Source: a virus
Virus record (IMG/VR): IMGVR_UViG_3300031918_000116
Span: 1 to 28,789 of that record
DNA length: 28,789 nt
Reading direction: 5' to 3' (one strand)
The translations under genes and the position numbers were made by a program. Positions 13,319-28,789 of the stretch are shown piece by piece. Positions within the stretch are counted from its first letter, which is position 1. Each line of letters starts with the position of its first letter. Under the pieces are notes generated by a model. It saw only the letters and a list, made by a program, of their open reading frames with translations, had not been told where the DNA came from and ran no database searches.

Positions 13319-13753
13319 TTATTTGCTCATCTCATTCAGGATAGCTCGGAAATTCCTAACTATGATCCCGGATAATCCATAAGCCTCATATTCTAGATTA
13401 TAGCCTTCAGCGTTTTCGTCCGGCAAGTAAAAGGCAATACTAATACCCTGTAAGATACCCTTGTCTTGCTGTTCCATGTGTATTACTTCATGGGCAATAG
13501 ATCTAAGGATGTCCATAAGACCTCGCGACTTACAATACACGATGATCGATCTTTCTTCAGGTAGTACATACGCAAGTCGCAAATCAGTCGCTATTGCCAC
13601 ATTACCGTCCTCAAAAGCCTGTTTGAGTTCGATCTTTACTGGATACTTGATCACTAACTCACTGAATAGATATTCTACGAAAGCCTTAATCAGCTTCTTA
13701 TCCATTTCACTCCAGTTATTTTCATTCGAATTCAAGTATAAATCGTGAGCCAT
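13319..13753 (-). CDS. Small HExxH zinc metallopeptidase-like protein
   Basis: The 144-residue product has AHEVIHMEQ, the HExxH zinc motif (H88, E89, H92), and downstream EYEAYGLSG, whose Glu fits the third ligand of gluzincin-type folds. I place the start at the ATG at 13753, not the TTG further upstream, because a CATAAATA box lies exactly 5 nt before it and the upstream TTG lies outside the predicted transcript. There is no signal peptide. Stand-alone minimal zincins occur in large phages with unknown targets. It is co-transcribed with the radical SAM gene. Confidence 0.78.
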   Translation of the reverse strand: MAHDLYLNSNENNWSEMDKKLIKAFVEYLFSELVIKYPVKIELKQAFEDGNVAIATDLRLAYVLPEERSIIVYCKSRGLMDILRSIAHEVIHMEQQDKGILQGISIAFYLPDENAEGYNLEYEAYGLSGIIVRNFRAILNEMSK

Positions 13754-13758
13754 GATTT

Positions 13759-13766
13759 TATTTATG
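13759..13766 (-). promoter_or_regulatory. Late-type box CATAAATA, exactly 5 nt before ATG
   Basis: Seven of eight bases match TATAAATA. It follows the PhoH terminator. Predicted transcription start coincides with the A of the ATG at 13753, and no SD exists. Confidence 0.68.
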
Positions 13767-13772
13767 GTAAAC

Positions 13773-13794
13773 AAAAAACCCCTCTTTCGAGGGG
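13773..13794 (-). terminator. Intrinsic terminator after phoH
   Basis: On the minus strand CCCCTC, GAAA loop, GAGGGG, then six T, 8 nt past the stop codon. Confidence 0.9.
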
Positions 13795-13801
13795 GCTTTA
13801 G

Positions 13802-14839
13802 TTAATCCTGAAATGCTGTCAGGATGTCTTTAACGATCTTACTTCGCTGAACGTCGTCGACTCCCATTTCGACTATTCCAATATTCTCAATGTCCTTGAG
13901 CTTATTCTTCAAGGAAGCTAGGGCCGAAGGCTCCCTATGTCTATTCTTTCTGTCGTCCTGTGAGGAGTCGCCAGTTAGAATCATCTTGGTATTTCCGCAG
14001 ATACGGGTCAATAGGGTGAGTAGAGTAACTTCATCGAAGTTCTGAGCTTCATCCACAATCACGACTGCATCAGAAATATTACAACCACGAGCGAATGCCG
14101 CAGGGAATAGTTCAATTCTTTCAGCTTCAGTTGCCTCGTCGTATTCTTCTCTACCCATCAATTCGACGAGAGCTTCAGAAATTGGACTCTGGTATGGATC
14201 AATCTTCTCATCAACACCTCCGGGAAGGAATCCAATGTCCCCGCCTACAGCAACAAGAGGGCGAATAATGATAATCTTACTGACTCGATTATCTCGCAAC
14301 ATATTAAGGGCCATGATCAGGGCAATTCTAGATTTTCCTGTACCTGCTGAACCTTCTACGATAGTGACGGTGTTTTTTCTGATGGATTCGACCAGATCAA
14401 TCTGATTCTTGGTCCTAGGGGTGAAGTATCTACCCTTAGCATCCTCGAAGATCGCATTCTTATTCCAAATATACGCTTGGTCGTTAGTATTCTTGAAATA
14501 CTCTTCGATTAGCTCTTCAACTTCAAAGTCGAATATCTCTCCTTCAGTTTCAGACTCAATGCGATAAACCTGTTCGATCACGTTCACTACTGAACGGAGC
14601 TTATCAAGTTTCCCATTAGAGACGAATCTAACGACATTCTTCCCAACGTCATAGTGACTAAACGAAGCTACCTTATGTAGTTCGCCTAGAACAAGATCAC
14701 ATAGCACACTAGACTTATATTCGTCAGGTAGGTATAGCTTAACTTCGCTACCTACGAATCCGTCAGTTGGTTGAGAAGTTGCCCTACGGGTTTTTTTCGC
14801 GTAAGTGCTTTTACCCTTGCCGTCCCTCTTGTCCTTCAT
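13802..14839 (-). CDS. phoH: PhoH-like P-loop ATPase
   Basis: The 345-residue protein has Walker A GSAGTGKS (163-170), IIRPLVAVGGDIGFLPG (about 191-207, the PhoH signature RPxxxxGxxxGFLPG), Walker B VVIVDEAQN (259-267) and LTGDSSQ. An N-terminal part of about 130 residues precedes the ATPase; such extensions occur in bacterial PhoH2/PhoL proteins and phage versions. PhoH proteins are predicted RNA helicase or RNA-linked ATPases and are frequent in marine and other large phages. It follows the 71-codon gene by 2 nt behind an AAAGGG SD and ends in a strong terminator. Length and motifs are intact. Confidence 0.93.
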   Translation of the reverse strand: MKDKRDGKGKSTYAKKTRRATSQPTDGFVGSEVKLYLPDEYKSSVLCDLVLGELHKVASFSHYDVGKNVVRFVSNGKLDKLRSVVNVIEQVYRIESETEGEIFDFEVEELIEEYFKNTNDQAYIWNKNAIFEDAKGRYFTPRTKNQIDLVESIRKNTVTIVEGSAGTGKSRIALIMALNMLRDNRVSKIIIIRPLVAVGGDIGFLPGGVDEKIDPYQSPISEALVELMGREEYDEATEAERIELFPAAFARGCNISDAVVIVDEAQNFDEVTLLTLLTRICGNTKMILTGDSSQDDRKNRHREPSALASLKNKLKDIENIGIVEMGVDDVQRSKIVKDILTAFQD

Positions 14840-14841
14840 AC

Positions 14842-15057
14842 TTACCCTTTCTTTCTTTCCAAGCGTCGAATACGTTCGACACGCCCGATATTAAACGCCT
14901 GAAATTTTTCGGACCTCACTGGAAAAGTATTTTCAATGTCAGTGTTTCGTCCAAGTGTGTAGGCCGCAGTTTGCTTCTTAACTAGCTTCTGCAACTTCTT
15001 GATCTCTTTATAGTCCATGTTCATTCTCGATGGTTTAAGGTTAATGTGGAGGTCCAC
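14842..15057 (-). CDS. Unknown small basic protein
   Basis: A 71-residue, Lys/Arg-rich protein ending in RVERIRRLERKKG, not recognised; charge suggests nucleic-acid or acidic-protein contact. The GTG at 15057 is chosen because the box GCTAAATA ends exactly 5 nt upstream and no SD precedes it. The alternative ATGs at 15024 and 15018 would leave a leader of over 30 nt without a good SD. It is the first gene of the PhoH transcript. Confidence 0.65.
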   Translation of the reverse strand: MDLHINLKPSRMNMDYKEIKKLQKLVKKQTAAYTLGRNTDIENTFPVRSEKFQAFNIGRVERIRRLERKKG

Positions 15058-15062
15058 AGCTT

Positions 15063-15070
15063 TATTTAGC
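15063..15070 (-). promoter_or_regulatory. Late-type box GCTAAATA, exactly 5 nt before GTG
   Basis: TAAATA core with two mismatches at the first two consensus positions. Predicted transcription start falls on the GTG at 15057. It is back to back with the rightward promoter at 15080. Confidence 0.55.
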
Positions 15071-15079
15071 GAGTCCTTG

Positions 15080-15088
15080 TGCTACAAT
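15080..15088 (+). promoter_or_regulatory. Extended -10 promoter TGCTACAAT
   Basis: TGn abuts TACAAT. Predicted start near 15095 leaves a leader with ACGGAGG, in good position for the GTG at 15109. It resembles TGCTATAAT at 19799. Confidence 0.5.
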
Positions 15089-15108
15089 CAGCTATAACGG
15101 AGGTAAAG

Positions 15109-15483
15109 GTGAAGACTAAGCGACACATCGACGCGATGGAGAGGATCACTCTCCGGGAGAATAGCAAGGTTAAGTACTTTTTCAAGTACACCTTGAAGGA
15201 ATACTATGCTCGGTTCTTCAGGAAAGATTTCCCTGAGGATCTACTATGTACTACCTTTGATATGTTCTACAAGAACTGGACAGGCAATAATGACGAACCT
15301 AAACTGTCTTGGTATAAGACAGAAGAGGAATTCGAGGATGCTTGTGATCTCCACAATGAGATCAAGACTCTATTAGACTACTGGGCTTTCAGAGGTCTGA
15401 ACCCTAGAGACAGAATTCAAGACGACCAGATGTTTATTCGCCTAGTGAAGATTAGACACAAGTTGCGCTTCGACGAGGTTTGA
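15109..15483 (+). CDS. Unknown protein, first gene of rightward operon
   Basis: The start is the GTG at 15109, 5-6 nt after ACGGAGG; upstream in-frame codons lie at or before the predicted transcription start. The 124-residue product is rich in aromatic and charged residues (KYFFKYTLKEYYARFFRKDF), probably all-helical, and not recognised. It opens a run of small genes leading to dCMP deaminase, typical of early accessory genes in large phages. Confidence 0.72.
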   Translation: MKTKRHIDAMERITLRENSKVKYFFKYTLKEYYARFFRKDFPEDLLCTTFDMFYKNWTGNNDEPKLSWYKTEEEFEDACDLHNEIKTLLDYWAFRGLNPRDRIQDDQMFIRLVKIRHKLRFDEV

Positions 15484-15497
15484 CATAAATTAGTGGT

Positions 15498-15740
15498 ATG
15501 AAAGTACTCGAAGGAAACTTCTGGGGTGAAATTGTAGTTAAGCTAGTCCCTAACGTAAAATGCGTAACCAATAACCGCATACAAGGGGACGACTACTTCA
15601 TCCTGCAGAAGAAGAGACTAGATGACGGTACTTGGATCAACTGCCCTCCAAATGATGTTAGAATAATCACTAGAGACTTGTTTGTGACCTGCGTCCAGCC
15701 CGGATATTATCGTTTTGAGATATACGGAGCTAAACCTTAA
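15498..15740 (+). CDS. Unknown small protein
   Basis: An 80-residue beta-rich protein with two or three Cys and no recognised family. It has no good SD. A near-match to the late box, CATAAATT (15484-15491), lies 6 nt before the ATG, so it may share the close-spaced promoter layout despite one mismatch in the core. A TTGACA at 15480 has no matching -10. Confidence 0.65.
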   Translation: MKVLEGNFWGEIVVKLVPNVKCVTNNRIQGDDYFILQKKRLDDGTWINCPPNDVRIITRDLFVTCVQPGYYRFEIYGAKP

Positions 15741-15750
15741 GGGGGTTTGC

Positions 15751-15930
15751 GTGTTAGTTGACTATAGAGATCGTGAAACTGGCGAAGTGTTTGAACTTCT
15801 CTTCAAGAATAGAAGCGAAGTTACAGATACTGTAGTAAATGAGAAGACTGGCAATATTGCTGATAAGCAAATGGCGGCAGGTAGCTTCAAGTTTGCTGGA
15901 GTTCCATGGAACTCTGGACCTATGATGTAA
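15751..15930 (+). CDS. Unknown small protein, possibly a cysteine-less FmdB-like domain
   Basis: The GTG at 15751 follows a GGGGG SD region at 15741-15745. The 59-residue product reads VDYRDRETGEVFELL near the start and AAGSFKFAGVPW near the end. The layout (a YxY/YRD strand, TGxxFE, then a second TG, then a Gly/Phe tail) recalls FmdB zinc-ribbon proteins, but the CxxC pairs are replaced by ETG and KTG. This is a weak resemblance. Its stop overlaps the next start (TAATG). Confidence 0.6.
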   Translation: MLVDYRDRETGEVFELLFKNRSEVTDTVVNEKTGNIADKQMAAGSFKFAGVPWNSGPMM

Positions 15931-16106
15931 TGGGATTCGCAGTCGAATTCGATTTGTTCATCGGATTTGGTGTGAGTTATTCGAAGTCTGAGTATTGGAG
16001 GATGTTAGTCCTCCATTTGCCGTTCATCGCAATATACTTTTCACTCCCGAGTGAATCTAGTGAAATTAGTGAAGAAGATGACATTGAGGAAAGGCGTAGA
16101 CTGTGA
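15930..16106 (+). CDS. Unknown small protein with hydrophobic segment
   Basis: Starts at the ATG overlapping the previous stop (TAATG). The 58-residue product has two hydrophobic stretches, GFAVEFDLFIGFGVSY and MLVLHLPFIAIYFSL, the second perhaps a membrane segment, then an acidic to basic tail (SEEDDIEERRRL). Its role is unknown. Stop TGA overlaps the GTG of the deaminase gene. Confidence 0.6.
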   Translation: MGFAVEFDLFIGFGVSYSKSEYWRMLVLHLPFIAIYFSLPSESSEISEEDDIEERRRL

Positions 16107-16540
16107 GTATTGGACCTATTCCATCCCATAAGCTAGAAGTATTCAAGAAGATGCTAGTTGAATATGCATCTCTATCCAAAGATCCAAGAACTAAGGTAGG
16201 TGCGATGATTCTTCGTCCTGACTTGTCGATTGTGTCTGAAGGATATAATGGATTTCCTGCAGGATTTCCTGATCTCCCTGAATACTGGAACGATAGGGAC
16301 ATCAAGAATGCACTGGTCATTCATGCTGAAGAGAATGCTCTTGATTACGCAAATTCCATCTACCTACCAGACCATTTGCTGATCTGTTCACACTATCCTT
16401 GCCCTCGATGCGCATCTAAGATCATCAAGCGTAAGATCGCCCACGTTTACTACTTCAACGAGAAGAGGGCAGACCACAACTGCTCACTAACCGATGACGT
16501 TTTTAGTCGCGCTGGAGTGAAAACCTACTTCATTGGTTGA
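16103..16540 (+). CDS. dCMP deaminase
   Basis: The 145-residue protein has HAEENAL (H74, E76) and PCPRC (C100, C103), the zinc site of the cytidine/deoxycytidylate deaminase family, and KDPRTKVGAMI near the start. It converts dCMP to dUMP for thymidylate synthesis, a usual part of T4-like nucleotide metabolism (T4 cd). The GTG start lies in a GTGA overlap with AGGAAAGG upstream. Its stop codon overlaps the -35 box of the next promoter. It is slightly shorter than T4 Cd (193 residues), and all active-site residues are present. Confidence 0.9.
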   Translation: MSIGPIPSHKLEVFKKMLVEYASLSKDPRTKVGAMILRPDLSIVSEGYNGFPAGFPDLPEYWNDRDIKNALVIHAEENALDYANSIYLPDHLLICSHYPCPRCASKIIKRKIAHVYYFNEKRADHNCSLTDDVFSRAGVKTYFIG

Positions 16541-16565
16541 CAATCGACCCTCCTTGTCGTATCTT
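16537..16565 (+). promoter_or_regulatory. Sigma-70-type promoter TTGACA-N17-TATCTT
   Basis: Perfect -35 at 16537-16542 (overlapping the deaminase stop), 17-nt spacer, -10 at 16560-16565. Predicted start is near 16572. The same promoter recurs at 17745 and 26890. Confidence 0.78.
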
Positions 16566-16584
16566 AGGTAAGAACAAGGAGGGT
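16547..16584 (+). promoter_or_regulatory. SD-masking inverted repeat overlapping a promoter
   Basis: ACCCTCCTTGT (16547-16557) is the exact complement of ACAAGGAGGGT (16574-16584), with 16 nt between. The right arm holds the SD of the gene at 16588. The left arm lies wholly in the promoter spacer, so RNA starting near 16572 lacks it, while read-through RNA from the deaminase gene would hide the SD. T4 gene e uses the same logic. Confidence 0.7.
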
Positions 16585-16587
16585 ACT

Positions 16588-17274
16588 ATGAAAATCATCT
16601 GGACCAAAATCAAGAACCCGGAGATGCAGGCTAAGGTCCGCTATCTTTCGGGCGAATTCATGGTACGTCGCGAACTCCACAATCTCTACGGGGATCGGAA
16701 CAGCGAAATCGACGTATACCTCCACGCATTCTCTCACGCATTCTCCGAACTCCGGAAGTGTATCGACGAGAATGAGCTTGTTGAGTACGTTGAGGGTATC
16801 GACGAAGTTTCCGAAATGCTCACTGAATTTGCGGTTGAGAATTTCAAGAACCCTGTCGAGACTAAGGGAGAAACTGTCGACGAATATCAGGAGAAGATCT
16901 GGCTGAACACCTCCAAGGTGTTTGAGCGGTTCGTCGCTCTGATCGCTACTTTCGCATATCACAAGTACAGGTACATGCTGAGTCCTGATGATCGCAAGGT
17001 CGAGGATCGGAACTGCTATTACACTTGGCTTGAGATCAAGAAGTACAATCGAGACAATGGAATTCTCTTCAACTTCACCGATGAGGAACTTCAGGGTACC
17101 ATCTTGACTTGGTATGAGCAGTCGGTCCTTCCGAGGCACCCCGGACTGTTTGAAAAGGTCGACGCTAAGAATGGACACAATTGTTGTGACGTTCTTCAGC
17201 AGTACGCCGGACCCAAGCCTAAGATCCCCGCATCCGAAATGGCAGATGGATATGAATTCGATCTCGGAATCTAA
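16588..17274 (+). CDS. Unknown early protein
   Basis: Start is the ATG at 16588, 5 nt after AAGGAGGG; the open frame continues upstream to 16537, before the predicted transcription start. The 228-residue product is acidic and helical with many Glu, Tyr and Leu, and a Cys pair (NCCDVL) near the C-terminus. I do not recognise it. It has a dedicated strong promoter and an SD controlled by an inverted repeat, which suggests high early expression and a need to stay silent in read-through RNA. Codons look more C/G-ending than in the Nudix gene that follows. Confidence 0.82.
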   Translation: MKIIWTKIKNPEMQAKVRYLSGEFMVRRELHNLYGDRNSEIDVYLHAFSHAFSELRKCIDENELVEYVEGIDEVSEMLTEFAVENFKNPVETKGETVDEYQEKIWLNTSKVFERFVALIATFAYHKYRYMLSPDDRKVEDRNCYYTWLEIKKYNRDNGILFNFTDEELQGTILTWYEQSVLPRHPGLFEKVDAKNGHNCCDVLQQYAGPKPKIPASEMADGYEFDLGI

Positions 17275-17283
17275 TAATAAAGG

Positions 17284-17291
17284 ACTAAATA
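17284..17291 (+). promoter_or_regulatory. Late-type box ACTAAATA, exactly 5 nt before GTG
   Basis: TAAATA at 17286-17291, TTACA, then GTG at 17297. No SD lies between. Predicted transcription start is the GTG itself. Confidence 0.58.
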
Positions 17292-17296
17292 TTACA

Positions 17297-17758
17297 GTGA
17301 AGTCTTCAGGTTTTCTAATTAATTGTTTCGGGAAATATTTACTATGTCATGCGACATGCTTTAATGGTAGTTTTTCCAGAAACGACGGACATTGGGGTGT
17401 CCCTAAGGGTATTGTCGAAGGCGACGATACTCTTTTAGAAACTGCAATACGAGAAACTGTCGAGGAAACTGGAATTAATATTCCCATGCTTGTTTCTAAG
17501 GGTAATGCGGTGATGTATGAAGATTTACTCTTCAGGTATCGAACTACAAAGAAATCGGTATATGTTTATTATGTAGAGTCAAAAATAGACTTAACTAAAT
17601 CGACACTGAAATGTACATCTAGAATCACCGGAAGTCATTTACCTGAAAACGACGCTTTCTGTTGGGTTGATTGGGATACTGCAAGGGAAATGGTATCCAA
17701 GAGACAGAAAGAACTTTTCTCAGATGATAATCTGAAGAAAATAGTTGACAGAACGTAA
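17297..17758 (+). CDS. Nudix hydrolase
   Basis: The Nudix box starts at the Gly of WGVPKGIVEGDD, continues with TLLETAI and ends in RETVEETGI, fitting Gx5Ex7REUxEExGU with Asp in place of the first Glu. Nudix enzymes hydrolyse nucleoside diphosphates linked to another group (dNTPs, NADH, ADP-ribose, RNA caps); substrate is not readable here. The GTG at 17297 is chosen from the TAAATA box and because the preceding gene ends at 17274. The 153-residue length is normal. It looks more AT-rich than both neighbours, hinting at separate acquisition or late expression. Its last codons contain the -35 box of the RNA ligase promoter. Confidence 0.85.
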   Translation: MKSSGFLINCFGKYLLCHATCFNGSFSRNDGHWGVPKGIVEGDDTLLETAIRETVEETGINIPMLVSKGNAVMYEDLLFRYRTTKKSVYVYYVESKIDLTKSTLKCTSRITGSHLPENDAFCWVDWDTAREMVSKRQKELFSDDNLKKIVDRT

Positions 17759-17773
17759 GACTTCCAGTATCTT
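17745..17773 (+). promoter_or_regulatory. Sigma-70-type promoter TTGACA-N17-TATCTT
   Basis: -35 at 17745-17750, -10 at 17768-17773, predicted start near 17780. A small CTTTC/GAAAG hairpin spans the start site and SD. Confidence 0.78.
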
Positions 17774-17796
17774 TCCTATCAGAAAGGAGGTACGAT

Positions 17797-19008
17797 ATGT
17801 CTACACTGCGTGATTTTTTGAATGAGATGTTCGGTCCAGATAGCGGAGCGACCGTCGAAGATATTAAGACTCGGTTTTCTGCCGATTTTGGAGTTATGGT
17901 CGACGTTGTCGATGAACTGTATCTCTTCAAGTACGACATGATCGCGGTCAAGTGGAATCCAGTCACTTTCGAGTGTCGTGGAACCATCATGGAGCGACTG
18001 TCTGACGGTTCTTGGGAGTATGTCTCTCGACCTCCTGTCAAGTTCTTCAATTTGCGAGAGGGACATTGCCCTTATTCTCAGAAGGAGAACTTCCTTCGAG
18101 ACTTCGAGAATCTTGAATTGGTTCAGAAGGCTGACGGTTCTGCGATTCAGATGTATTTCTGGCGAGGGCAGTGGAGAATCTCCACCCTCGGGAAGATCAT
18201 CCCTTGCAGGGTTAGCGACTATGGGTTCACTTTCGCTGAACTGTTCATGAAGTTGTTTGGGGAAGAGGCGCTCACCAAGGCAAATCCAGAGTTCTGCTAC
18301 TTCCATGAACTCTGCACGAACTACAACATCATCGTCACTCACTATCCTGAGGATTCTATCTTCTTGCTCTTGGCTCGTAACGTCAGAACTGGCGAGTACA
18401 TGTCGACTGCGGAGCTTGACAATGCGGCTGAGGACTTCAATGAGCTTCGTCCGCATCGACTTAAGGTGTCTGAGTTGCCGTTGGTCGAAAGGACGCTAGA
18501 GGCTCTGGAAATGTTCGTAGAGGAGATGGCAACTGACCCTCGATACGGACAGAACCCTGAAGGATTCGTACTTTCGAACCCAGTACCCGTCGGGAAGATG
18601 AAGAATCAGCGTTACCTAGTACTTCACCGCCTAATCGGAGGCGGAGATAAGGGACACACTGTCAATAATCTCCTCGACATGTTCTTCGCAGGTATCATCG
18701 ACGACTTCTATTCTGATCTCACCGAGATGCAGAAGAATGCAATCGAGACTCTGCGCACCAAGATCGTGGGATATAACCCCAGCATCGAGGAATTCCTCCA
18801 GTCATGCAACCTTGGCGAAATTGATCGTAAGACTTTCGCACTGAAGGTGAATGAACTGGGAGATTTGAAGCGATTCAGTGGGTACATGTTCTACAGGTAC
18901 ATGGATCATGACTTTCTGCCGTTCACCGAATGGTTACTGTCTGGAAAGAACAACTCAAGGGTGTGGACAAAGTTCGAAGATCTCTGGAAGTCAGAGTTCG
19001 TCATCTAA
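17797..19008 (+). CDS. rnlA: T4 Rnl1-like RNA ligase
   Basis: The 403-residue protein has nucleotidyltransferase motif I KADGSAI (lysine K111), preceded by FECRGTIME (a RG element as in T4 RnlA), motif III FHELC, motif IV EGFVLSN and motif V KMKNQRYLVL. A C-terminal helical domain of about 120 residues follows, as in T4 Rnl1 (374 residues). Rnl1 joins 5'-phosphate and 3'-hydroxyl RNA ends using ATP and in T4 repairs tRNA cut by the host PrrC nuclease. AAAGGAGG lies 7 nt before the ATG, behind its own early-type promoter. No polynucleotide kinase gene is seen in the window. Confidence 0.88.
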   Translation: MSTLRDFLNEMFGPDSGATVEDIKTRFSADFGVMVDVVDELYLFKYDMIAVKWNPVTFECRGTIMERLSDGSWEYVSRPPVKFFNLREGHCPYSQKENFLRDFENLELVQKADGSAIQMYFWRGQWRISTLGKIIPCRVSDYGFTFAELFMKLFGEEALTKANPEFCYFHELCTNYNIIVTHYPEDSIFLLLARNVRTGEYMSTAELDNAAEDFNELRPHRLKVSELPLVERTLEALEMFVEEMATDPRYGQNPEGFVLSNPVPVGKMKNQRYLVLHRLIGGGDKGHTVNNLLDMFFAGIIDDFYSDLTEMQKNAIETLRTKIVGYNPSIEEFLQSCNLGEIDRKTFALKVNELGDLKRFSGYMFYRYMDHDFLPFTEWLLSGKNNSRVWTKFEDLWKSEFVI

Positions 19009-19023
19009 ACTAAGGAGAATGGA

Positions 19024-19155
19024 ATGCGAAAGGGATTTACTCTCATTGAATTGATGGTCGTTATCGTCATCGTCGGCATTTTTGCCTCACTCTTCATTCC
19101 GAAGATGTGTGGCAATGGTCATGTCGAACAGTACAATAGCCATGGCCCTCGATAA
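19024..19155 (+). CDS. Prepilin-like microprotein with type III signal peptide
   Basis: A 43-codon gene with AAGGAG (19012-19017) 6 nt before its ATG. The product begins MRKGFTLIELMVVIVIVG, a textbook prepilin motif: a basic leader, Gly-Phe cleavage site, Glu at +5, then about 20 hydrophobic residues (to SLFIPK near 27), then a short polar tail of 16 residues. Prepilin peptidase would be expected to cut after Gly4. The normal pilin globular domain is absent. The next frame overlaps and lacks a good SD. I infer a decoy or inhibitor of type IV pili or type II secretion; a captured host fragment is the alternative. Confidence 0.72.
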   Translation: MRKGFTLIELMVVIVIVGIFASLFIPKMCGNGHVEQYNSHGPR

Positions 19156-19330
19156 TTTCCACATCGAAAGAGAGTGTCATGAACTAGATGATCCTAAATT
19201 AGCCCTTTCTGTATGGCGAAATAAGATCGATGAACTTATTTCGAAATATGGAGAGGATTCTCTTCTAGGATTTGATGCAGGACACAATAACGTAGAAGCA
19301 ACAATATACCATGAGGTATGCCATGACTAA
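19121..19330 (+). CDS. Unknown small protein overlapping the pilin-like gene
   Basis: A 69-residue frame in the +1 frame relative to the pilin-like gene, overlapping it by 35 nt. Candidate starts are the ATG at 19121 (weak GTGTGG upstream) and at 19142. The acidic product (ERECHELDDPKLALSVWRN) has no recognised family. Translation may depend on coupling to the pilin-like gene, or on a +1 frameshift that would join them; there is no strong slippery site. It overlaps the YqeY start by 8 nt. Confidence 0.55.
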   Translation: MSNSTIAMALDNFHIERECHELDDPKLALSVWRNKIDELISKYGEDSLLGFDAGHNNVEATIYHEVCHD

Positions 19331-19781
19331 CCTATTCGAAAAAGTGAATACTGCGGTTGTAGAGGCCGCTAAGAACAAGGATTCTGCTCGACTGCTGATC
19401 CTTCGTACACTCGTCAGCGATATTCGCAACGTGGCCAAGAAGGCTTGTCGCGAAGAGGTCGTCGACGACGACGTGATGGGTGCTCTCGTCAAGGGAGTGA
19501 AGCAACGCGAAGACTCGATCACCCAGTTCAAGGCGGCTGGTCGAGAATACTTGGTGGAGAATGAGACTTTCCAAGTAAATGTCCTCAAGGAATTCCTACC
19601 TGAGCAGTTGAGTGAGGATAAAGTTCGCGAGATCGTCGTAGAGACTGTCGAGCGGATCGCCAACGGAGGCACGAAGTCCAAGAAGCTGATGGGAATGATC
19701 ATGAAGGAACTGAACCCTGAACTCAAGGGTAAGGCCGACATGAAATTCGTCAGTTCCATCCTCTCTGAGTTGTTGGTTTAA
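19323..19781 (+). CDS. yqeY: YqeY / GatB-tail family protein
   Basis: The 152-residue protein matches YqeY along its full length: an N-terminal helix with AAKNKDSARLLILRTLVSDI, then VKGVKQREDSITQFKAAGRE, LKEFLPEQLSEDK, and a C-terminal part with LMGMIMKELNPELKGKADMK and FVSSIL. This helical domain also forms the tail of GatB in the tRNA-dependent amidotransferase, where it contacts tRNA. YqeY itself is poorly understood and is unusual in a phage. The ATG at 19323 is chosen over 19311 because GAGG sits 6 nt before it. It lies between two RNA ligase genes, which suggests a tRNA-linked role. Confidence 0.85.
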   Translation: MTNLFEKVNTAVVEAAKNKDSARLLILRTLVSDIRNVAKKACREEVVDDDVMGALVKGVKQREDSITQFKAAGREYLVENETFQVNVLKEFLPEQLSEDKVREIVVETVERIANGGTKSKKLMGMIMKELNPELKGKADMKFVSSILSELLV

Positions 19782-19798
19782 TTCGAAAATCTTTTCCA

Positions 19799-19807: not shown

Positions 19808-19814
19808 TAATGGC

Positions 19815-20606
19815 ATGGAAAAGATTCAATTTACCGATTTCGAGGCGCATATCAAGGAAATCCAGCCAATAACGCTGGATCTTGCCAATCACTTGTTTTA
19901 CTGCATGAATACTATGCGAGTAAAGGCAAATAATAAGTACACTTACCTATGTCGAGACTCTGAAGGTAAATGGGAACTCCATATTTACAATTACGGATTT
20001 AATTACAGACATAAAGAGGACTATACTTCATACGTCTGCATATATCACGAGACTTGTAGAGAAAATGGATATGCTGAATTATCTTTTAGTGTTAAAGACG
20101 CCACTGTGCGTGGAGTATTTTCGTTTATTGACGATGTACTCACTAAGGAATATGAAAACGCTATAGGGAACGTAGCAAGACTAAGCAAAGTCAACGGTGA
20201 GTGGATATTCGCATCGGGTGTTAAGTTAGATGTAGATATGGGTATGGATTTCGAGGCGCTACGGGCTGAATTGCTAGGGGTGCTTCGAGGCGAAATTCCT
20301 GCAGAAGTGATACAAAATCCAGAAATCGAACCTGAAATTCTTGATGTATTCGACGCAGACGCAATTGAAGAATGCGATAATATCGTAACTGTTCTAGAAT
20401 CACATGAAATCGAATACTATCAAATAGACCCTAGTGATTTGAATAAACTAGCGAAGGCAGTTGTTGCTAGTAGGAAAGAAGGGAATGGGCCTTTTGCTAG
20501 AAATAGTGAAGGTGAATGGATTTCTGAGAATAACGGCAGTGTGATATACTATGATCCATGGAGTACACTATGTGCTTCTAGTGGCAGGTGGATTAAGTTC
20601 AAGTAG
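19815..20606 (+). CDS. Unknown protein
   Basis: A 263-residue protein not recognised. The N-terminal half is rich in Tyr and aromatic residues (YLCRDSEGKWELHIYNYGFN), and similar blocks near the C-terminus (RNSEGEWISENNGSVIYYD, SSGRWIKFK) suggest a repeated small beta motif of the form SEGxWxx. The middle is acidic (about 160-205). Visibly AT-richer than neighbouring ligase genes. Probable start at the ATG just after an extended -10 promoter. Confidence 0.72.
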   Translation: MEKIQFTDFEAHIKEIQPITLDLANHLFYCMNTMRVKANNKYTYLCRDSEGKWELHIYNYGFNYRHKEDYTSYVCIYHETCRENGYAELSFSVKDATVRGVFSFIDDVLTKEYENAIGNVARLSKVNGEWIFASGVKLDVDMGMDFEALRAELLGVLRGEIPAEVIQNPEIEPEILDVFDADAIEECDNIVTVLESHEIEYYQIDPSDLNKLAKAVVASRKEGNGPFARNSEGEWISENNGSVIYYDPWSTLCASSGRWIKFK

Positions 20607-22158: not shown

Positions 22159-22169
22159 GCAAAAAAAGA

Positions 22170-22193
22170 GCCTCCCGATTGGGAGGCTTTTTT
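22170..22193. terminator. Bidirectional intrinsic terminator
   Basis: GCCTCCC (22170-22176, counting the G) pairs with GGGAGGC (to 22187), flanked by an A run on the left and T run on the right. It serves the RNA ligase gene (+) and the convergent coiled-coil gene (-), whose stop codon lies in the T run. Confidence 0.9.
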
Positions 22194-22782
22194 ATTTTGA
22201 GTTTGCTGTTGAGTCTAACTGTTTAAGTTTCAATAGTAATGAATCTCTAGTGCTATTCTGACTAATAGTTTTTACCACAATGGCCCTGATCTCTTCTGGC
22301 TTTGGTTGCTTCGATGAATTATCCTTGATAGCAAGCCAATTACCTGCGGCTGTCAATAGTACTGTACCTATGAATCCAATAATCCACATCCTGAGTTCGC
22401 GCCTGAATGATGCTTTCTCAGTCCTGCGCTCACTCTCCACGTTCATCAAGGCTTTTACAATTGGTGTCAGTTCATATACTTCTTTAATGGTCTTTTCTAG
22501 CAGTGCTTCTATTTTCTCAATCCGGTCATATACTTCAATTACGTTTTCGTCAAATTTACCAAGAAGTTCTTTAATTTCTGCGATTTCGTCCTTCAAACCC
22601 TTCCGTCCATTACCCTCGATCTTATTGAACAACTTCTCTATGTTATCTCTAATTTCGTTGAATTTGTTTTCGGAATTTAACTTGAATTCTTTCAATGATG
22701 CCAACTCAGTCTTACACTGCCTAAGTTCTGTGATCTCAGTATAGAGTCTATCAAATTCTGCTTGGTGTGGGTCTGGACTCAT
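22192..22782 (-). CDS. Membrane-anchored coiled-coil protein
   Basis: A 196-residue protein. Residues ~8-125 show heptad-like Leu/Ile spacing with many Glu and Lys (FNEIRDNIEKLFNKIEG, VYDRIEKIEALLEKTIKEVY), so a long coiled coil. One membrane segment (MWIIGFIGTVLLTAAGNWLA) lies near 131-150, followed by a polar tail. Orientation is not certain. A perfect TATAAATA box 5 nt before the ATG predicts late expression, so a lysis-related (holin or spanin-like) or virion-associated role is possible but unproven. Confidence 0.8.
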   Translation of the reverse strand: MSPDPHQAEFDRLYTEITELRQCKTELASLKEFKLNSENKFNEIRDNIEKLFNKIEGNGRKGLKDEIAEIKELLGKFDENVIEVYDRIEKIEALLEKTIKEVYELTPIVKALMNVESERRTEKASFRRELRMWIIGFIGTVLLTAAGNWLAIKDNSSKQPKPEEIRAIVVKTISQNSTRDSLLLKLKQLDSTANSK

Positions 22783-22787
22783 TCAAA

Positions 22788-22795
22788 TATTTATA
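22788..22795 (-). promoter_or_regulatory. Perfect late box TATAAATA, exactly 5 nt before ATG
   Basis: All eight consensus bases are present. TTTGA separates it from the ATG at 22782, leaving no room for an SD. Predicted start is the A of ATG. Confidence 0.75.
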
Positions 22796-22832
22796 GTATT
22801 GCATTCATTTTGAAAAAAGATGTAGATAATAG

Positions 22833-22861
22833 TAGACAGTTCGCGCATCTTAAATTACTAT
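22833..22861 (+). promoter_or_regulatory. Sigma-70-type promoter TAGACA-N17-TACTAT
   Basis: Five of six -35 and four of six -10 bases match. Predicted start is near 22868, giving a leader with AGGAGG before the ATG at 22881 and excluding the upstream ATG at 22863. Confidence 0.55.
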
Positions 22862-22880
22862 TATGGTACAGGAGGTAGCG

Positions 22881-24704: not shown

Positions 24705-24713
24705 TACTAAATA
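24685..24713 (+). promoter_or_regulatory. Hybrid promoter TTGACA-N17-TAAATA
   Basis: A perfect -35 hexamer sits 17 nt before a TAAATA box inside the end of ligA. Predicted start near 24719-24720 is 2-3 nt before the ATG at 24722. It is the only TAAATA box seen here with a -35. Confidence 0.4.
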
Positions 24714-24721
24714 TCTACCCT

Positions 24722-24889
24722 ATGGATCTTCGAGTTTATGCAGAAGCGCAACGAGAAGAAATGCAAAAGCATCGCTGGATAGAGTCGGAAAAGAATGGAT
24801 TCGATCTAGGGGATTCTGCCTATATGGACTGGATAAGAAAATACGCTAAGTTGTTCAGAGAGTATTGGAATTCAAAATACGGGACATAA
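24722..24889 (+). CDS. Small conserved protein of unknown function
   Basis: A 55-residue product: an N-terminal YAEAQREEMQKHRWIESEK, then GFDLGDSAYMDWIRKYAKLF and REYW. Short proteins with the KHxWIESEKxGxDLG...DWIxKYAxxFR pattern occur in phages and bacteria in my memory; their role is unknown. The ATG at 24722 is preferred from the nearby promoter; an ATG at 24701 overlapping the ligA stop (ATGA) would add 7 residues. Neither has an SD. Confidence 0.65.
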   Translation: MDLRVYAEAQREEMQKHRWIESEKNGFDLGDSAYMDWIRKYAKLFREYWNSKYGT

Positions 24890-24892
24890 TTA

Positions 24893-24918
24893 AAAAGGCC
24901 AGCTAACGCTGGCCTTTT
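24893..24918. terminator. Bidirectional intrinsic terminator
   Basis: AAAAGGCCAGC (24893-24903) pairs with GCTGGCCTTTT (24908-24918) around TAAC. It lies between the convergent genes ending at 24889 (+) and 24924 (-). Confidence 0.88.
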
Positions 24919-24923
24919 CTATT

Positions 24924-25043
24924 TCACAAAAGAGGTTTGATTCGTTTTACCTTCGGCTCGTCCTCGCACTCCTTCATTGGCTTTTCGCGAGGTTCGATGG
25001 TTTCTAGAATTACCCTTGTGCCTTTTGGTTGTTCGACTGACAT
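24924..25043 (-). CDS. 39-residue protein with KGT...LETI motif
   Basis: The frame starts in the stop of the upstream gene (TAATG) and ends just before the bidirectional terminator. The product begins MSVEQPKGTRVILETIEPRE and has a Lys/Pro/Glu tail. The KGTxxxLExI segment resembles two segments of the upstream protein. Its position, coupling and shared motif make it a likely real gene despite its size. Confidence 0.6.
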   Translation of the reverse strand: MSVEQPKGTRVILETIEPREKPMKECEDEPKVKRIKPLL

Positions 25044-25342
25044 TACTTAGCATCCTTTCGTTGATTTATTGCTTCTAGTACAATATTAGTGCCCTTGAGT
25101 CTGATCTTAGATGGAAACTTCCCATTAGCTGACTCAGTCAGTACTTTTCTATTGTATTCGTCGATGCGCATACCTCTCTTGTACGCAACACCCTCAAACA
25201 TTACATATTCAGCAGGAAGCTCTTCCTTGACGTATACTTCGTCATTATATTTGACCTTTTCTCCGGTCTTATTTGGAGCAACAGACTCTAGGATGTAGTT
25301 GCATTCCTCACCCTTTACTCTAATCATGGTTGGTTTAGTCAT
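25043..25342 (-). CDS. Small late protein with two KG...LE(S/A) motifs
   Basis: Start is taken as the ATG at 25342, 9 nt after GAGG; two earlier in-frame ATGs (25357, 25348) lie at or very near the predicted transcription start. The 99-residue product contains VKGEECNYILESVAP near the N-terminus and LKGTNIVLEAIN near the C-terminus, two related segments, with a Tyr/Glu/Lys-rich middle. Function unknown. It is expressed from a late-type box back to back with that of the terminase gene. Confidence 0.68.
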   Translation of the reverse strand: MTKPTMIRVKGEECNYILESVAPNKTGEKVKYNDEVYVKEELPAEYVMFEGVAYKRGMRIDEYNRKVLTESANGKFPSKIRLKGTNIVLEAINQRKDAK

Positions 25343-25360
25343 GTTCATATACCTCATGCG

Positions 25361-25368
25361 TATTTATG
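25361..25368 (-). promoter_or_regulatory. Late-type box CATAAATA
   Basis: Predicted start near 25355 leaves a 13-nt leader that holds GAGG and then the ATG at 25342. Confidence 0.6.
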
Positions 25369-25379
25369 GATTGAATATC

Positions 25380-25387
25380 TATAAATA
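25380..25387 (+). promoter_or_regulatory. Perfect late box TATAAATA, exactly 5 nt before ATG
   Basis: Full consensus match. AAAAC separates it from the ATG at 25393; no SD anywhere upstream. Predicted start is the A of ATG. Confidence 0.75.
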
Positions 25388-25392
25388 AAAAC

Positions 25393-25935
25393 ATGGACGA
25401 TTGGCTCGGCAGTGATGCATTAGGATCAGACGGCGATCTAGTAGATTGCCGCAATACTAGATTAGTACAAGTTAAGAACGCATTCAGCGGCATCGAGGAT
25501 GCTATGAATATTCCTATGGGATCGACTCCTGTGGCGAAGGGATTGGCTAAGGTCGTAAAGAAGAATACTGCAGTTGCAGTTACAGTGGCTAAGGAAGTCC
25601 TAGCAGATCCAGAAGAGTCATTCGAGGATAAAGAATTCCTTCGAGAGGTAATCAAGACTCAAATCATCAAGATGCAGTCCGTGCTTGAGATGATGGAAGG
25701 TAATTTCATGCAGGGTGCTGAGCCTAGAATGTTTGAAGTTTACTCAGACCTGAATAAAAGCGTACTAGACGCATGTACTAAACTAATGTCACTCCAGAAG
25801 CAGTCGGAAAATGCAAAGATGATGAAAGCTCAGCCTGCTAATGAAGTGACACTCACAGAAACCAAGCAATTGAAAGCATCTGGTAGCGACATGGCCGCAC
25901 TGATGGAACAATTGCGAGGTGGACAAGTTAGCTAA
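25393..25935 (+). CDS. Probable terminase small subunit (T4 gp16-like)
   Basis: The 180-residue protein has an acidic N-terminus (DDWLGSDALGSDGDLVD), a middle segment and a long helical core ending in PRMFEVYSDLNKSVLDAC, LMSLQKQ, then a polar tail with EVTLTETKQL and LMEQLRGG. The core pattern, helix then PRxxEVxxxLxKxxxDAxxxLxxLxKQ, fits T4-like gp16 proteins, where it forms the oligomeric ring that guides DNA packaging. A perfect late promoter supports a virion-assembly role. No large subunit follows; the next gene is convergent. Motif memory only, so moderate certainty. Confidence 0.55.
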   Translation: MDDWLGSDALGSDGDLVDCRNTRLVQVKNAFSGIEDAMNIPMGSTPVAKGLAKVVKKNTAVAVTVAKEVLADPEESFEDKEFLREVIKTQIIKMQSVLEMMEGNFMQGAEPRMFEVYSDLNKSVLDACTKLMSLQKQSENAKMMKAQPANEVTLTETKQLKASGSDMAALMEQLRGGQVS

Positions 25936-26839
25936 TTAGCGTTACTGGTATTTTAGCTCCCATCTCCTTATAGTAATTCATATATTTCCAACCTGTCATT
26001 GTATTACTATCTTTAGATATTTTGGTGTCTATGTAGGTGAACTTGATATTGGGTATTTCATTTGCAATTTCGCGCAATAACTTAACTTGTTCTATTCTAG
26101 CCTGTATCCTTGCTAGAGTTTCACCTTCAGCTAAGTAAGAATCCCATAGGTTCTCCACGTTATTCTGATGCTTTGCCGCTTCGAACGAAGGACAGTCATT
26201 GGTATATCCAGCCCCAACTGCATATATTTCAATAGTGTCATCGCTAGACGCCAACTTCAATGACTCAGCCAGACCATACATTAGAGGTAAATTGGCAAGA
26301 CCTTCACCACCATCCTCACATATCATCTTTCTCTTCTCGTCGACGTAATGTCCGAAGTATCCAACTGCCGCAAATGACTTAGCAACGCAATCAACTATAG
26401 GGTCATTCTCATATTCATCTCCACCGAATGATCTCATTCTTATATTCTCGTCAACTAGAGTATTAACGGTGACTGCAATAAACTTTGTCTTTAGTGTCTT
26501 CATTTCAGACGCCCCGTATTTCTCAAGTATAGTCTTAAGGGGGTTCAATACTCTATTCCTATCATACCATGGAGAGGTTATTTTCTTAATCGGCCTCCAC
26601 CATGGGTATTGATATGTGAATATGTTCTTGCCGTTGGCGAAGTACATGTCTTCAATTTCACTAGGCGACCCACCTGCGGCCAATACCGCACCTTCGATAG
26701 TACCTGTAGATGAACCTATTATCAGGTTGAAGAATTTATGTATCGGTTGCCCAGACAATTCTTCAATCTTCTTAAGTACTTCAAGGGATATGATACCGCA
26801 CAAACTACCACCAGACAAAACAAGTACCCTAAATGTCAT
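25928..26839 (-). CDS. Patatin-like phospholipase
   Basis: The 303-residue protein has the patatin order: a glycine-rich oxyanion loop (LSGGSLCGI, near 8-16), nucleophile elbow GSSTG (S44), and catalytic DGG (D176) in EDGGEGLANLP. Patatin-like enzymes hydrolyse membrane phospholipids or other acyl esters with a Ser-Asp dyad; bacterial members include CapV, the CBASS effector. There is no signal peptide. Start at 26839 follows AAAGGAG; longer frames upstream lack an SD. A TAAATA box at 26862 suggests late expression, so membrane damage at lysis is one idea. Its 3' end overlaps the terminase gene by 8 nt. Confidence 0.88.
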   Translation of the reverse strand: MTFRVLVLSGGSLCGIISLEVLKKIEELSGQPIHKFFNLIIGSSTGTIEGAVLAAGGSPSEIEDMYFANGKNIFTYQYPWWRPIKKITSPWYDRNRVLNPLKTILEKYGASEMKTLKTKFIAVTVNTLVDENIRMRSFGGDEYENDPIVDCVAKSFAAVGYFGHYVDEKRKMICEDGGEGLANLPLMYGLAESLKLASSDDTIEIYAVGAGYTNDCPSFEAAKHQNNVENLWDSYLAEGETLARIQARIEQVKLLREIANEIPNIKFTYIDTKISKDSNTMTGWKYMNYYKEMGAKIPVTLIS

Positions 26840-26861
26840 GATTTTCTCCTTTAGACATCCA

Positions 26862-26869
26862 TATTTACT
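26862..26869 (-). promoter_or_regulatory. Late-type box AGTAAATA
   Basis: Predicted start near 26856 gives a 17-nt leader with AAAGGAG before the patatin ATG. Confidence 0.45.
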
Positions 26870-26889
26870 AAAACGATCACTTTTGGTGG

Positions 26890-26918
26890 TTGACAGTAGG
26901 CGACCCGTCCAGTATCTT
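26890..26918 (+). promoter_or_regulatory. Sigma-70-type promoter TTGACA-N17-TATCTT
   Basis: -35 at 26890-26895, -10 at 26913-26918, preceded by CCAG as in the copy at 17745. Predicted start near 26925. Confidence 0.75.
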
Positions 26919-26920
26919 GT

Positions 26921-26968
26921 ATGGGTGGCACTATCGAGTGCGACGGCCTGATTACCACGCCACTCCAT
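26921..26968 (+). promoter_or_regulatory. Imperfect inverted repeat over the start site; structured leader
   Basis: ATGGGTGGC (26921-26929) pairs with GCCACTCCAT (26959-26968) with one bulge, and inside it GCACT/AGTGC (26928-26941) forms a small hairpin. The leader to the ATG at 27018 is about 93 nt and looks more GC-rich than its surroundings. CCCATGGG at 26981-26988 offers an alternative partner for ATGGG. It may be a regulatory leader or an operator. Confidence 0.4.
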
Positions 26969-27017
26969 CGGGCGACGACTCCCATGGGACTGGCTAACCT
27001 TTACGAGAGGACTACAA

Positions 27018-27488
27018 ATGCACAATCCTAAGGAGCTTTTTGGCGAAAAGGTATGTGGGATGATAGAGAATGCTCAGATTGTGGCAGATAACCTGAAATT
27101 CAGAACAAAGGTCGATCAGACAGTTGATGATTTGATTAGTGTCGTTGAAATTGCATTGCAATCTATTCTACACGCAACTGAAAATGATGAACGTAAAGAT
27201 CATTTTAGTCAGCCGGAATTGTCGGAAGAGCAATCAAGTGTTTCAGTAGATGATTTGATTGCCGAATCGTATGTCTACGGAAAGTCTGACGAAGAAATCA
27301 GTGGTGAGTTCAAGAACGATCTCAATGCTACGATTAAGGATTTCTCGTGGTTACTAGTGTCAATCGGCATTGCACTCGACAATGAAGATAAAATTGCAAT
27401 TACAAAGATGCTTAAACAAAAGACTATTGAATTATTCGAAAAAGAACGAAAACTCAATGAACTTGAGAACTCGATGAAAAACGTATAG
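27018..27488 (+). CDS. Unknown early protein
   Basis: A 156-residue acidic, helical protein not recognised. Two related segments, VDQTVDDLISVVEIA (near 32-46) and VSVDDLIAESYVYG (near 75-88), share VDDLI, hinting at an internal repeat. A C-terminal coiled-coil-like helix (LFEKERKLNELENS) ends the protein. ACGAGAGG precedes the ATG by 7 nt after a long structured leader from a strong early-type promoter. Confidence 0.75.
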   Translation: MHNPKELFGEKVCGMIENAQIVADNLKFRTKVDQTVDDLISVVEIALQSILHATENDERKDHFSQPELSEEQSSVSVDDLIAESYVYGKSDEEISGEFKNDLNATIKDFSWLLVSIGIALDNEDKIAITKMLKQKTIELFEKERKLNELENSMKNV

Positions 27489-27492
27489 ATAT

Positions 27493-27516
27493 AAAAAGAG
27501 AGGAATTAATCCTCTC
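27493..27516 (-). terminator. Intrinsic terminator for the leftward pair of genes
   Basis: GAGAGGA and TCCTCTC (27498-27504 and 27510-27516) form a stem, followed on the minus strand by five T. The stop codon of the 116-codon gene lies in the loop. Confidence 0.82.
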
Positions 27517-27856
27517 CTACAGTCGAAACATTTGGCAGTTTAGAAAGTCCACTAGTATATTGCTCTAGTAGAGTACCCAATTCCTTATCCAAAGCCTCCT
27601 CATGGAGGCTCTTTCTTTTCTTATTCTTACCTTTTAGCCTGACGGTTCCGCCCCTGTACGAGAATCCAAGATACTTAGGATACATTGCAACGTCTGCAGT
27701 GGTGGTTATGCCTGCAACAGGCTCACCAACAGGCCCTACAGCGGATGCGGCAGTGGCGTCACCCGCAACACCCGCAACACCCGCACTCATCCCCTCGCCA
27801 TCCTCAAGGAGGCTCCTAGGCTCGTCAAGTCCCTCGTATAGAACGGAAAGTCTCAA
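27506..27856 (-). CDS. Unknown late protein with Ala/Gly/Val-rich repeat
   Basis: Starts at a TTG overlapping the previous stop (TTGA), 8 nt after AAGGAG. The 116-residue protein has a low-complexity middle (AGVAGVAGDATAASAVGPVG, about 26-45) encoded partly by a 9-bp tandem repeat, and a basic segment VRLKGKNKKRKS near 72-83. Its VRLKGKN echoes the KG motif of the protein at 25043. A hairpin at 27593-27610 lies within the gene. Role unknown; probably late with its upstream partner. Confidence 0.68.
   Translation of the reverse strand: MRLSVLYEGLDEPRSLLEDGEGMSAGVAGVAGDATAASAVGPVGEPVAGITTTADVAMYPKYLGFSYRGGTVRLKGKNKKRKSLHEEALDKELGTLLEQYTSGLSKLPNVSTVGED
27762..27785. repeat. 9-bp tandem repeat CCCGCAACA
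   Basis: About 2.7 copies in phase with the codons of the overlapping gene, adding an AGV-type tripeptide per copy. Copy number could vary between related phages. Confidence 0.7.
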
Positions 27857-28215
27857 GCTAAGAACTCCTTAGCGCCTAGAGCGGCTTCGGCCAATGCCAA
27901 CTTCAAAGCCTCAATCTTCTCAGCACTCTCAGGATTTACGTCCTTAGCACTGTCCAATACACCTTCGAGAATGTAGGTTGTATATAGATCAGAGATCTTT
28001 TCTGCGGCTTCAGTCAAATTCTTCTTAGCTTCTGCCTTCTTAGCTTTCTTTGCGTCTGCATTATCTACAATCTTCTTCTTCGCATCGCTAAGAGGCGGAG
28101 CCTTGATCTTAGACTGGCGAGATTCCATGATTGCGGCAGGCGCGTAAAATGTCTCTTCCGAAACATTCATCATTACATCATCAAATTTTTCACTAACGCT
28201 CTGAATGGTGCTCAT
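27853..28215 (-). CDS. Unknown late Lys/Ala-rich helical protein
   Basis: A 120-residue protein rich in Ala, Lys and Glu, with DAKKKIVDNADAKKAKKAE near 44-63 and long predicted helices. Such composition is common in phage scaffold or prohead core proteins, and the perfect late promoter 16 nt upstream supports an assembly role, but no family is recognised. A CGAGG SD is close to the predicted 5' end of a ~11-nt leader. It is coupled to the next gene by a TTGA overlap. Confidence 0.72.
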   Translation of the reverse strand: MSTIQSVSEKFDDVMMNVSEETFYAPAAIMESRQSKIKAPPLSDAKKKIVDNADAKKAKKAEAKKNLTEAAEKISDLYTTYILEGVLDSAKDVNPESAEKIEALKLALAEAALGAKEFLA

Positions 28216-28231
28216 TTTAATACCTCGATGT

Positions 28232-28239
28232 TATTTATA
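28232..28239 (-). promoter_or_regulatory. Perfect late box TATAAATA
   Basis: Full consensus match. Predicted start near 28226, giving an 11-nt leader that begins with GAGG, then ATG at 28215. Confidence 0.72.
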
Positions 28240-28293
28240 GTCCAATTCAAAAAAAGGTTGACGGAGTCATTTGCCGACTGAGACTCGAAATAT

Positions 28294-28301
28294 CCTAAAT
28301 A
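28294..28301 (+). promoter_or_regulatory. Late-type box CCTAAATA, exactly 5 nt before ATG
   Basis: TAAATA at 28296-28301, CTTCA, then ATG at 28307. No SD. Confidence 0.55.
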
Positions 28302-28306
28302 CTTCA

Positions 28307-28789
28307 ATGAAAATAGAAAGTCTACCCGGAATCTACAAGATAACCAATAAACTGAACGGAAGGTCGTACATTGGACAGAGCATAGACGTTTTAGCTAGAA
28401 TTAAGACTCATAAGAGGAAATCTAGAAAATTAGTAATTAATAAGGCAATTCAAAAGTATGGAGTCTCGTCTTTCGTCTTCGAAGTAATCATTTACTGTGA
28501 AGTTTCATTACTAGACGAGTACGAAAAAGCACTTATAGTCTATCACAATACCATAAGTCCGCATGGATATAACATCGAAGTTGGCGGTAAAGATAGACAT
28601 ATGGTAGAGTCGACTAAAGAAAAACTGTCAAATATGATGAAAGGTCGACATGTTGGAGAAAATAATCCGTTCTATGGGAAATCTCATAGCGAAGAGGTTA
28701 AGAAGATAATATCTGAGGCTAATGTAGGTAAAATAATCTCAGAAGAACATCGTAAGGTAGTAGCTAAATCTGCAAGCACCAGAAAAGGA
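28307..28789 (+). CDS. GIY-YIG homing endonuclease with NUMOD3 motifs, 3' cut by window
   Basis: The frame is open for 161 codons to the window end. The N-terminus has PGIYKITN and SYIGQS (the GIY and YIG strands), an Arg in LARIKTHKR, and a Glu-containing LLDEYEKALIVYHNT, as in the family. The C-terminal part has NPFYGKSHSEEVKKIISEA and SEEHRKVV, NUMOD3-type DNA-binding repeats. Such free-standing homing endonucleases (T4 Seg type) cut related phage genomes and spread by repair. No intron boundary was seen. The start rests on the TAAATA box 5 nt upstream; no SD exists. Confidence 0.9.
   Translation, partial: MKIESLPGIYKITNKLNGRSYIGQSIDVLARIKTHKRKSRKLVINKAIQKYGVSSFVFEVIIYCEVSLLDEYEKALIVYHNTISPHGYNIEVGGKDRHMVESTKEKLSNMMKGRHVGENNPFYGKSHSEEVKKIISEANVGKIISEEHRKVVAKSASTRKG

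Follow-up and report, generated by a model that had tools for sequence, protein, structure and literature searches.

Predicted leaderless late mRNAs beside Shine-Dalgarno-led ones from T4-type late promoter boxes in a T4-like phage lineage

Late transcription in phage T4 is a textbook system, in which the late promoters are served by gp55, gp33 and gp45 and the mRNAs are regarded as led by a Shine-Dalgarno (SD) sequence. The T4 late box TATAAATA lies at −13 to −6, and that of phage Aeh1, CTAAATA, starts at −12 (PMC1524935). Leaderless mRNAs have been described in other systems: one report, citing Sevostyanova 2007, gives the middle and late mRNAs of Thermus phage phiYS40 as mostly leaderless (PMC3594737), the AR9 paper states that phage transcripts are often leaderless (PMC5312081), and leaderless bacterial genes, common in Actinobacteria and Deinococcus-Thermus, have a TANNNT box some 12 bp ahead of the start codon (PMC3160421). 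From phiYS40, phages are thus already known to make leaderless late mRNA; from T4-type late promoters we found none described, and searches of the open-access literature gave no paper joining leaderless mRNA to TATAAATA promoters. Here we analyze a 28.8-kb linear virus fragment (IMG/VR record IMGVR_UViG_3300031918_000116, positions 1 to 28,789; this whole stretch is hereafter called the window), in which TAAATA boxes stand 5 nt before start codons on both strands. Comparison with related contigs makes it likely that, in this poorly known group of T4-like jumbo phages, a T4-type late box, served by a gp55-like sigma factor, gives leaderless late mRNAs beside an SD-leadered set.

The window encodes a PhoH-like protein, RNA ligases, an NAD-dependent DNA ligase, a small terminase subunit, a patatin, a NUDIX hydrolase, a homing endonuclease and a sigma-70-family protein, and has no near DNA match among 50,697 phage records. 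Its relatives in IMG/VR are G001 (306 kb) and G002 (36 kb), the only ones found in scans by alignment with three window proteins, and three more related contigs, G004–G006, were retrieved with the G001 large terminase. G001 is T4-like: phmmer detected homologues of T4 gp43, 44, 41, 61, 32, 46, 47, UvsX and UvsW and of gp17, 18, 20, 21, 23, 15 and 4. The six contigs were pooled (431 kb, five of the six being short fragments), and 554 genes were called in them by a periodic Markov model that is blind to promoter and SD sequence. Genes with a box 5–6 nt before the start are referred to as the near class, and those with a box at 12–35 nt as the far or leadered class.

As a word, TAAATA is not enriched in the window (19 observed, 21.1 expected), and the excess lies in its placement. 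The pattern TAAATA-N5-RTG, where R is A or G, occurs seven times against a mean of 0.77 and a maximum of 4 in 100 shuffles; one of the seven, 6779 on the minus strand, falls inside a gene. The excess of the 5-nt spacing in a larger genome, on which the original prediction depended, was found in G001, where the pattern occurs 35 times and a reversed-pattern control twice, and again in G004–G006 (13 versus 0). In the spacing histogram of G001, 5 nt (35) and 6 nt (21) stand out sharply from the remaining spacings, which average about 6, and other hexamers gave no comparable 5-nt peak there. In a de novo hexamer-by-position scan of G001, reaching upstream to −45, TAAATA at −11 ranked top, and the entries just below it include SD words and TACAAT. 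Raw RTG counts in the pooled set are 60 at 5 nt and 34 at 6 nt, whereas dinucleotide shuffles average 17 and reach at most 29 and 25, respectively. The distances from box to start in the 554 called genes are bimodal: 38 at 5 nt, 26 at 6 nt, 6 at 7–9 nt, a single one at 10–14 nt, 20 at 15–19 nt and at most 3 per distance beyond that. Such a distribution could in principle come about by chance in AT-rich DNA, where TAA stops of upstream genes lie beside start codons; indeed TAAATA is not over-represented overall, and the TAA of the box doubles as the upstream stop in six G001 cases. The excess, however, survives shuffles, reversed patterns and other hexamers, and is seen across orthologues and in divergent contexts that have no upstream stop, so that the counts across the genome and between relatives already contradict a chance origin, which deserves almost no weight.

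The start codons at the 5-nt spacing are also selective. In the pooled contigs ATG was found 49 times against a background of 7.6 and GTG 11 times against 2.3, with no enrichment of TTG or CTG, and the GTG enrichment is confined to this spacing. In mycobacteria a 5′-terminal start works only as ATG or GTG, with leaderless GTG performing poorly in E. coli (PMC4633059); the enrichment of ATG and GTG only agrees with the mycobacterial rule, although TTG starts are rare in these phages generally and the codon choice is therefore supporting evidence only.

All boxes listed in the original prediction were found at the positions given. Of the 19 window boxes, it had put 15 no more than about 30 nt from a start on the same strand; the placement stands and the count becomes 13–14. 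It had also named six genes with the 5-nt spacing as leaderless, of which those at 13753, 17297, 22782, 25393 and 28307 are retained and that at 15057 is not, because a conserved ATG lies downstream. Two 6-nt cases that it kept apart, at 4253 (plus) and 11720 (minus), do have their boxes, but there is no reason to separate them, since 6 nt is the second genome-wide peak and both have 6 nt in G001. The features of the window, with spacings in "all three genomes" referring to the window, G001 and G002, are as follows.

13759–13764, minus strand: late box (A)TAAATA, 5 nt before the ATG at 13753 (gene 13319–13753, 144 aa, function unassigned); in relatives 5 and 6 nt before the ATG at the matching N-terminus
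13765–13804, minus strand: intrinsic terminator, hairpin ΔG −14.2 plus T tract, abutting the 13753 box on its upstream side; terminator followed by box is repeated in G001 and G002
17286–17291, plus strand: late box (C)TAAATA, 5 nt before the GTG at 17297 (NUDIX hydrolase, 17297–17758); GTG start and 5-nt spacing common to all three genomes
22788–22793, minus strand: late box (A)TAAATA, 5 nt before the ATG at 22782 (gene 22192–22782, forming a divergent pair with the DNA ligase gene); spacing shared by all three genomes
25382–25387, plus strand: late box (A)TAAATA, 5 nt before the ATG at 25393 (gp16-like terminase small subunit, 25393–25935); 5 nt in all three genomes
28296–28301, plus strand: late box (C)TAAATA, 5 nt before the ATG at 28307 (GIY-YIG homing endonuclease, continuing past the contig end); no orthologue found in G001
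4241–4246, plus strand: late box (A)TAAATA, 6 nt before the ATG at 4253 (gene 4253–4690)
11727–11732, minus strand: late box (A)TAAATA, 6 nt before the ATG at 11720 (gene 10182–11720); intrinsic terminator (ΔG −18.5) directly upstream
9367–9372, minus strand: late box (A)TAAATA, 9 nt before the ATG at 9357, which would leave a leader of about 4 nt; 9 nt in G001

We propose that [A/C]TAAATA acts as the −10 element in late promoters of the T4 type, which would have no −35 element and would be recognized by RNA polymerase in complex with a gp55-like sigma factor of the phage. With the T4 geometry (−13 to −6), a box ending 5 nt before the codon would make +1 coincide with the first base of the ATG or GTG, and the resulting mRNA, having neither leader nor SD, would be translated through recognition of its 5′-terminal start codon in a host that presumably tolerates such messages; a spacing of 6 nt would give a leader of 0–1 nt. 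In the second set of late genes the box is at least 15 nt off, and the leader would be just long enough to hold an SD. Intermediate predicted leaders (2–9 nt) are rare.

Alternatively, the box might be a translation signal, an A/U-rich substitute for the SD, on an mRNA beginning further upstream, with no promoter at the box. It sits exactly at the SD position, where SD motifs are missing, as would then be expected, but the identical extended box also heads SD-bearing genes that begin 15–30 nt further on. Moreover, the base before the box, which played no part in box selection, shows the restriction seen in T4-type late promoters: A or C precedes 63/64 start-proximal boxes but only 33/195 of those far from starts, with the same preference in the leadered class, and 81 of the 135 [AC]TAAATA[ACT] octamers in the 431 kb sit 5–6 nt before ATG or GTG. 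The three bases further upstream of the extended box are unconserved in either class, and no conserved −35 element surfaced in the de novo hexamer scan, a separate −35 scan not having been made. Also against a translation signal are ten divergent gene pairs in G001, G004, G005 and G006 (none in the reversed control), in which the 34–48 nt between the start codons are filled by two back-to-back boxes, each 5–6 nt from its own codon, so that a leadered start would fall at or inside the opposite gene. Divergent heads make up 25/59 of the near-class genes and 33/393 of the other genes; among codirectional genes, 10/34 of the near class and 31/360 of the others follow a terminator, and several boxes come immediately after one, as at 13753 and 11720 in the window. 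We therefore consider the translation-signal explanation improbable.

The promoter interpretation is further consistent with the gene content. G001 carries at 71342–72271 a gp55-type late sigma gene (phrog_234, E 2e-13), the best PDB match being T4 gp55, weakly. The near-class genes include homologues of gp4, gp6, gp13, gp14, gp16 and gp19, and the far class that of gp18; genes of both classes cluster at 0–60 and 80–160 kb, with almost none at 160–220 kb. With the divergent pairs, the terminators, the extended motif, this sigma gene and the contrast to T4 described below, the T4-type promoter assignment made in the original prediction is supported.

Several points weigh against this interpretation. 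The gp55-type gene is known from G001 only, the genome that the search covered; there, the gp45-like gene beside gp44 is a weak match (E 0.003), and gp33 was not found with T4 gp33 as the query. In tight operons some boxes share bases with the TAA that ends the preceding gene, and read-through transcripts would there carry the downstream gene too; the locus at 15057, discussed below, is a case in which the pattern alone misleads. The 5′ ends are predictions from the sequence, and a leader of 1–3 nt cannot be told from none, 6 nt being a common spacing. In this connection, the promoter may be real while initiation occurs a few bases upstream or imprecisely, giving leaders of 1–5 nt that would be near-leaderless in practice. 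Both 5 and 6 nt are common and 8–9 nt occur, and because the T4 box lies about one helical turn upstream (PMC2988020), +1 can wobble; against this, the number of genes drops from 64 at 5–6 nt to 7 at 7–14 nt and GTG is enriched at 5 nt only, which suggests that +1 is held at the codon. Imprecise initiation thus seems unlikely, if slightly less so than a translation signal.

The two classes differ in SD content. An SD motif was found in 21/23 far-class genes, 248/393 other genes and 8/59 near-class genes (near versus far, P 5e-11); the near-class scarcity is partly built in because the box fills the SD position, which also tells against the leaderless interpretation, but the near-complete SD content of the far class cannot be explained in this way. 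The class is conserved as well: orthologue pairs between the window and G001 comprise 6 near-near, 3 far-far and 23 other-other pairs with no switch, and comparisons with G002 gave a few class changes or miscalled starts. Alignments of the orthologous proteins begin at the predicted first codon, which for the NUDIX gene is GTG in all three genomes. Thus the split between predicted leaderless and SD-leadered late genes suggested originally is supported by spacing, SD content and class conservation. A simple rule in which abundant virion proteins are SD-led and rare ones leaderless fails, since the homologue of gp19 (tail tube) belongs to the leaderless class. In the window, the leadered class has the following boxes.

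28232–28237, minus strand: box 16 nt before the ATG at 28215, with GAGG near the predicted 5′ end; 16 nt in G001
12283–12288, minus strand: box 27 nt before the ATG at 12255, followed by SD-like GGGG; spacings of 27, 31 and 32 nt make the gene leadered in each of the three genomes
25361–25366, minus strand: box 18 nt before the ATG at 25342, with GAGG between; the G002 orthologue has 17 nt and GAGG
15063–15068, minus strand: late box (C)TAAATA followed by GTGGACCTCCAC, heading a leadered gene with its ATG near 15018

The genes at 28215, 25342 and 12255 had been assigned to this group before, together with 26839 (minus), which we remove: the base before its box at 26867 is G, a very rare choice among start-proximal boxes, so that this box is probably not a promoter.

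The gene behind the 15063–15068 box had been read as leaderless from a GTG at 15057 (minus). This start was rejected, because the GTG frame in G001 stops after about 10 codons and the box in G002 is placed differently, and the conserved protein begins with ATGGA(C/T)TA(C/T)AA in all three genomes, about 44–53 nt past the box. After the late box of this small gene, which stands before phoH, GTGGACCTCCAC at 15057–15046 (minus) could fold into a short hairpin right where the mRNA is predicted to begin, and a short hairpin after the late box is possible in all three genomes (G001 17969–17980; G002 about 29856–29871, CGTG...CACG). Possibly it serves as 5′-end protection or as a regulatory element.

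Leaderless late mRNAs are upheld as a prediction, but the arrangement does not seem to be limited to late genes as had been proposed. The sigma70 extended −10 motif TGnTAnnnT peaks 6 nt before G001 starts, for example those of primase, RNase H and dUTPase. It lies 6–7 nt before the starts of G001 genes 61, 70, 75, 80, 89, 103, 151, 170 and 372 and of one gene in the window.

19815–20606, plus strand: candidate early leaderless gene, with TGCTATAAT, an extended −10 of the sigma70 type, 7 nt before its ATG

By standard promoter numbering the sigma70 extended −10 ends at −7, so two unrelated promoter types, each at its own distance, give the same answer, +1 at the start codon. These sigma70-type boxes probably mark a second, early leaderless class. 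Besides the gp55-type sigma factor, a second and different phage protein, of the sigma-70 family (regions 2 and 4), is encoded at 1277–1996 in the window and at 30826–31551 in G001.

As for translation, G001 has about 42 tRNA genes, some 40 of them at 281348–296896 (L020 1348–16896) and two elsewhere, and a tmRNA with the tag AEESYSYALAA (Rfam 190 bits). One tRNA-Met (L020 14882–14954) has an apparent U-U mismatch at 1:72 and looks initiator-like, which we take from its resemblance to E. coli tRNA-fMet. Neither a phage-encoded bS21 nor a phage-encoded IF3 was found in G001. The tmRNA tag was absent from all genome contigs searched for a host. A TnpB-type transposase at the contig edge (window 1–1047) has at most about 45% identity to plasmid and phage matches, which are too dispersed to indicate a host, and a pattern search of genome contigs with it gave no relative.

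Taken together, there is a reasonable case, somewhat less firm than that for the leaderless late mRNAs themselves, that this lineage runs much of its programme leaderless, with gp55-type late and sigma70-type early promoters, a leader that is all-or-nothing and fixed per gene over long divergence, and back-to-back late promoters that, in the tightest case, share the 34 bp from one start codon to the other. If true, one phage sigma factor would be tied to a second mode of translation initiation within a T4-like lineage, and one could test whether the switch answers to properties of the host ribosome, to crowding of promoters or to the level of expression. In practical terms, gene callers misplace some starts in such phages, as our own did for gp16 in G001, and [A/C]TAAATA-N5-RTG may serve as a marker of both start sites and late genes.

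Compared with known systems, the boxes resemble those of T4 and Aeh1 in that TAAATA is preceded by A (T4) or C (Aeh1) at a similar position to the predicted +1, no −35 is conserved, late structural genes lie downstream and a gp55-type sigma gene is present (in G001). The spacing is unlike that of T4, where TATAAATA peaks 23–28 nt from starts and an SD leader fits, whereas here it is mostly 5–6 nt. A convincing 5-nt excess was absent from T4, Syn9, phiM12, Motura, Phosso, Tunturi_5, MaAM05, a 735-kb phage, a 164-kb IMG/VR contig and Aeh1 (C-prefixed box only). The predicted leaderless late mRNAs are shared with phiYS40, for which they are reported (PMC3594737), while the passage reporting them names no gp55/TAAATA system; in 50 kb of a phiYS40 relative, just 6 and 4 of 89 TAAATA boxes lie at 5 and 6 nt. 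As in the leaderless bacterial genes with TANNNT, a −10 element stands one helical turn before the start, and the 6-nt class of TGnTAnnnT matches these exactly; unlike in those genes, the main class here is a phage late box rather than a host −10 element.

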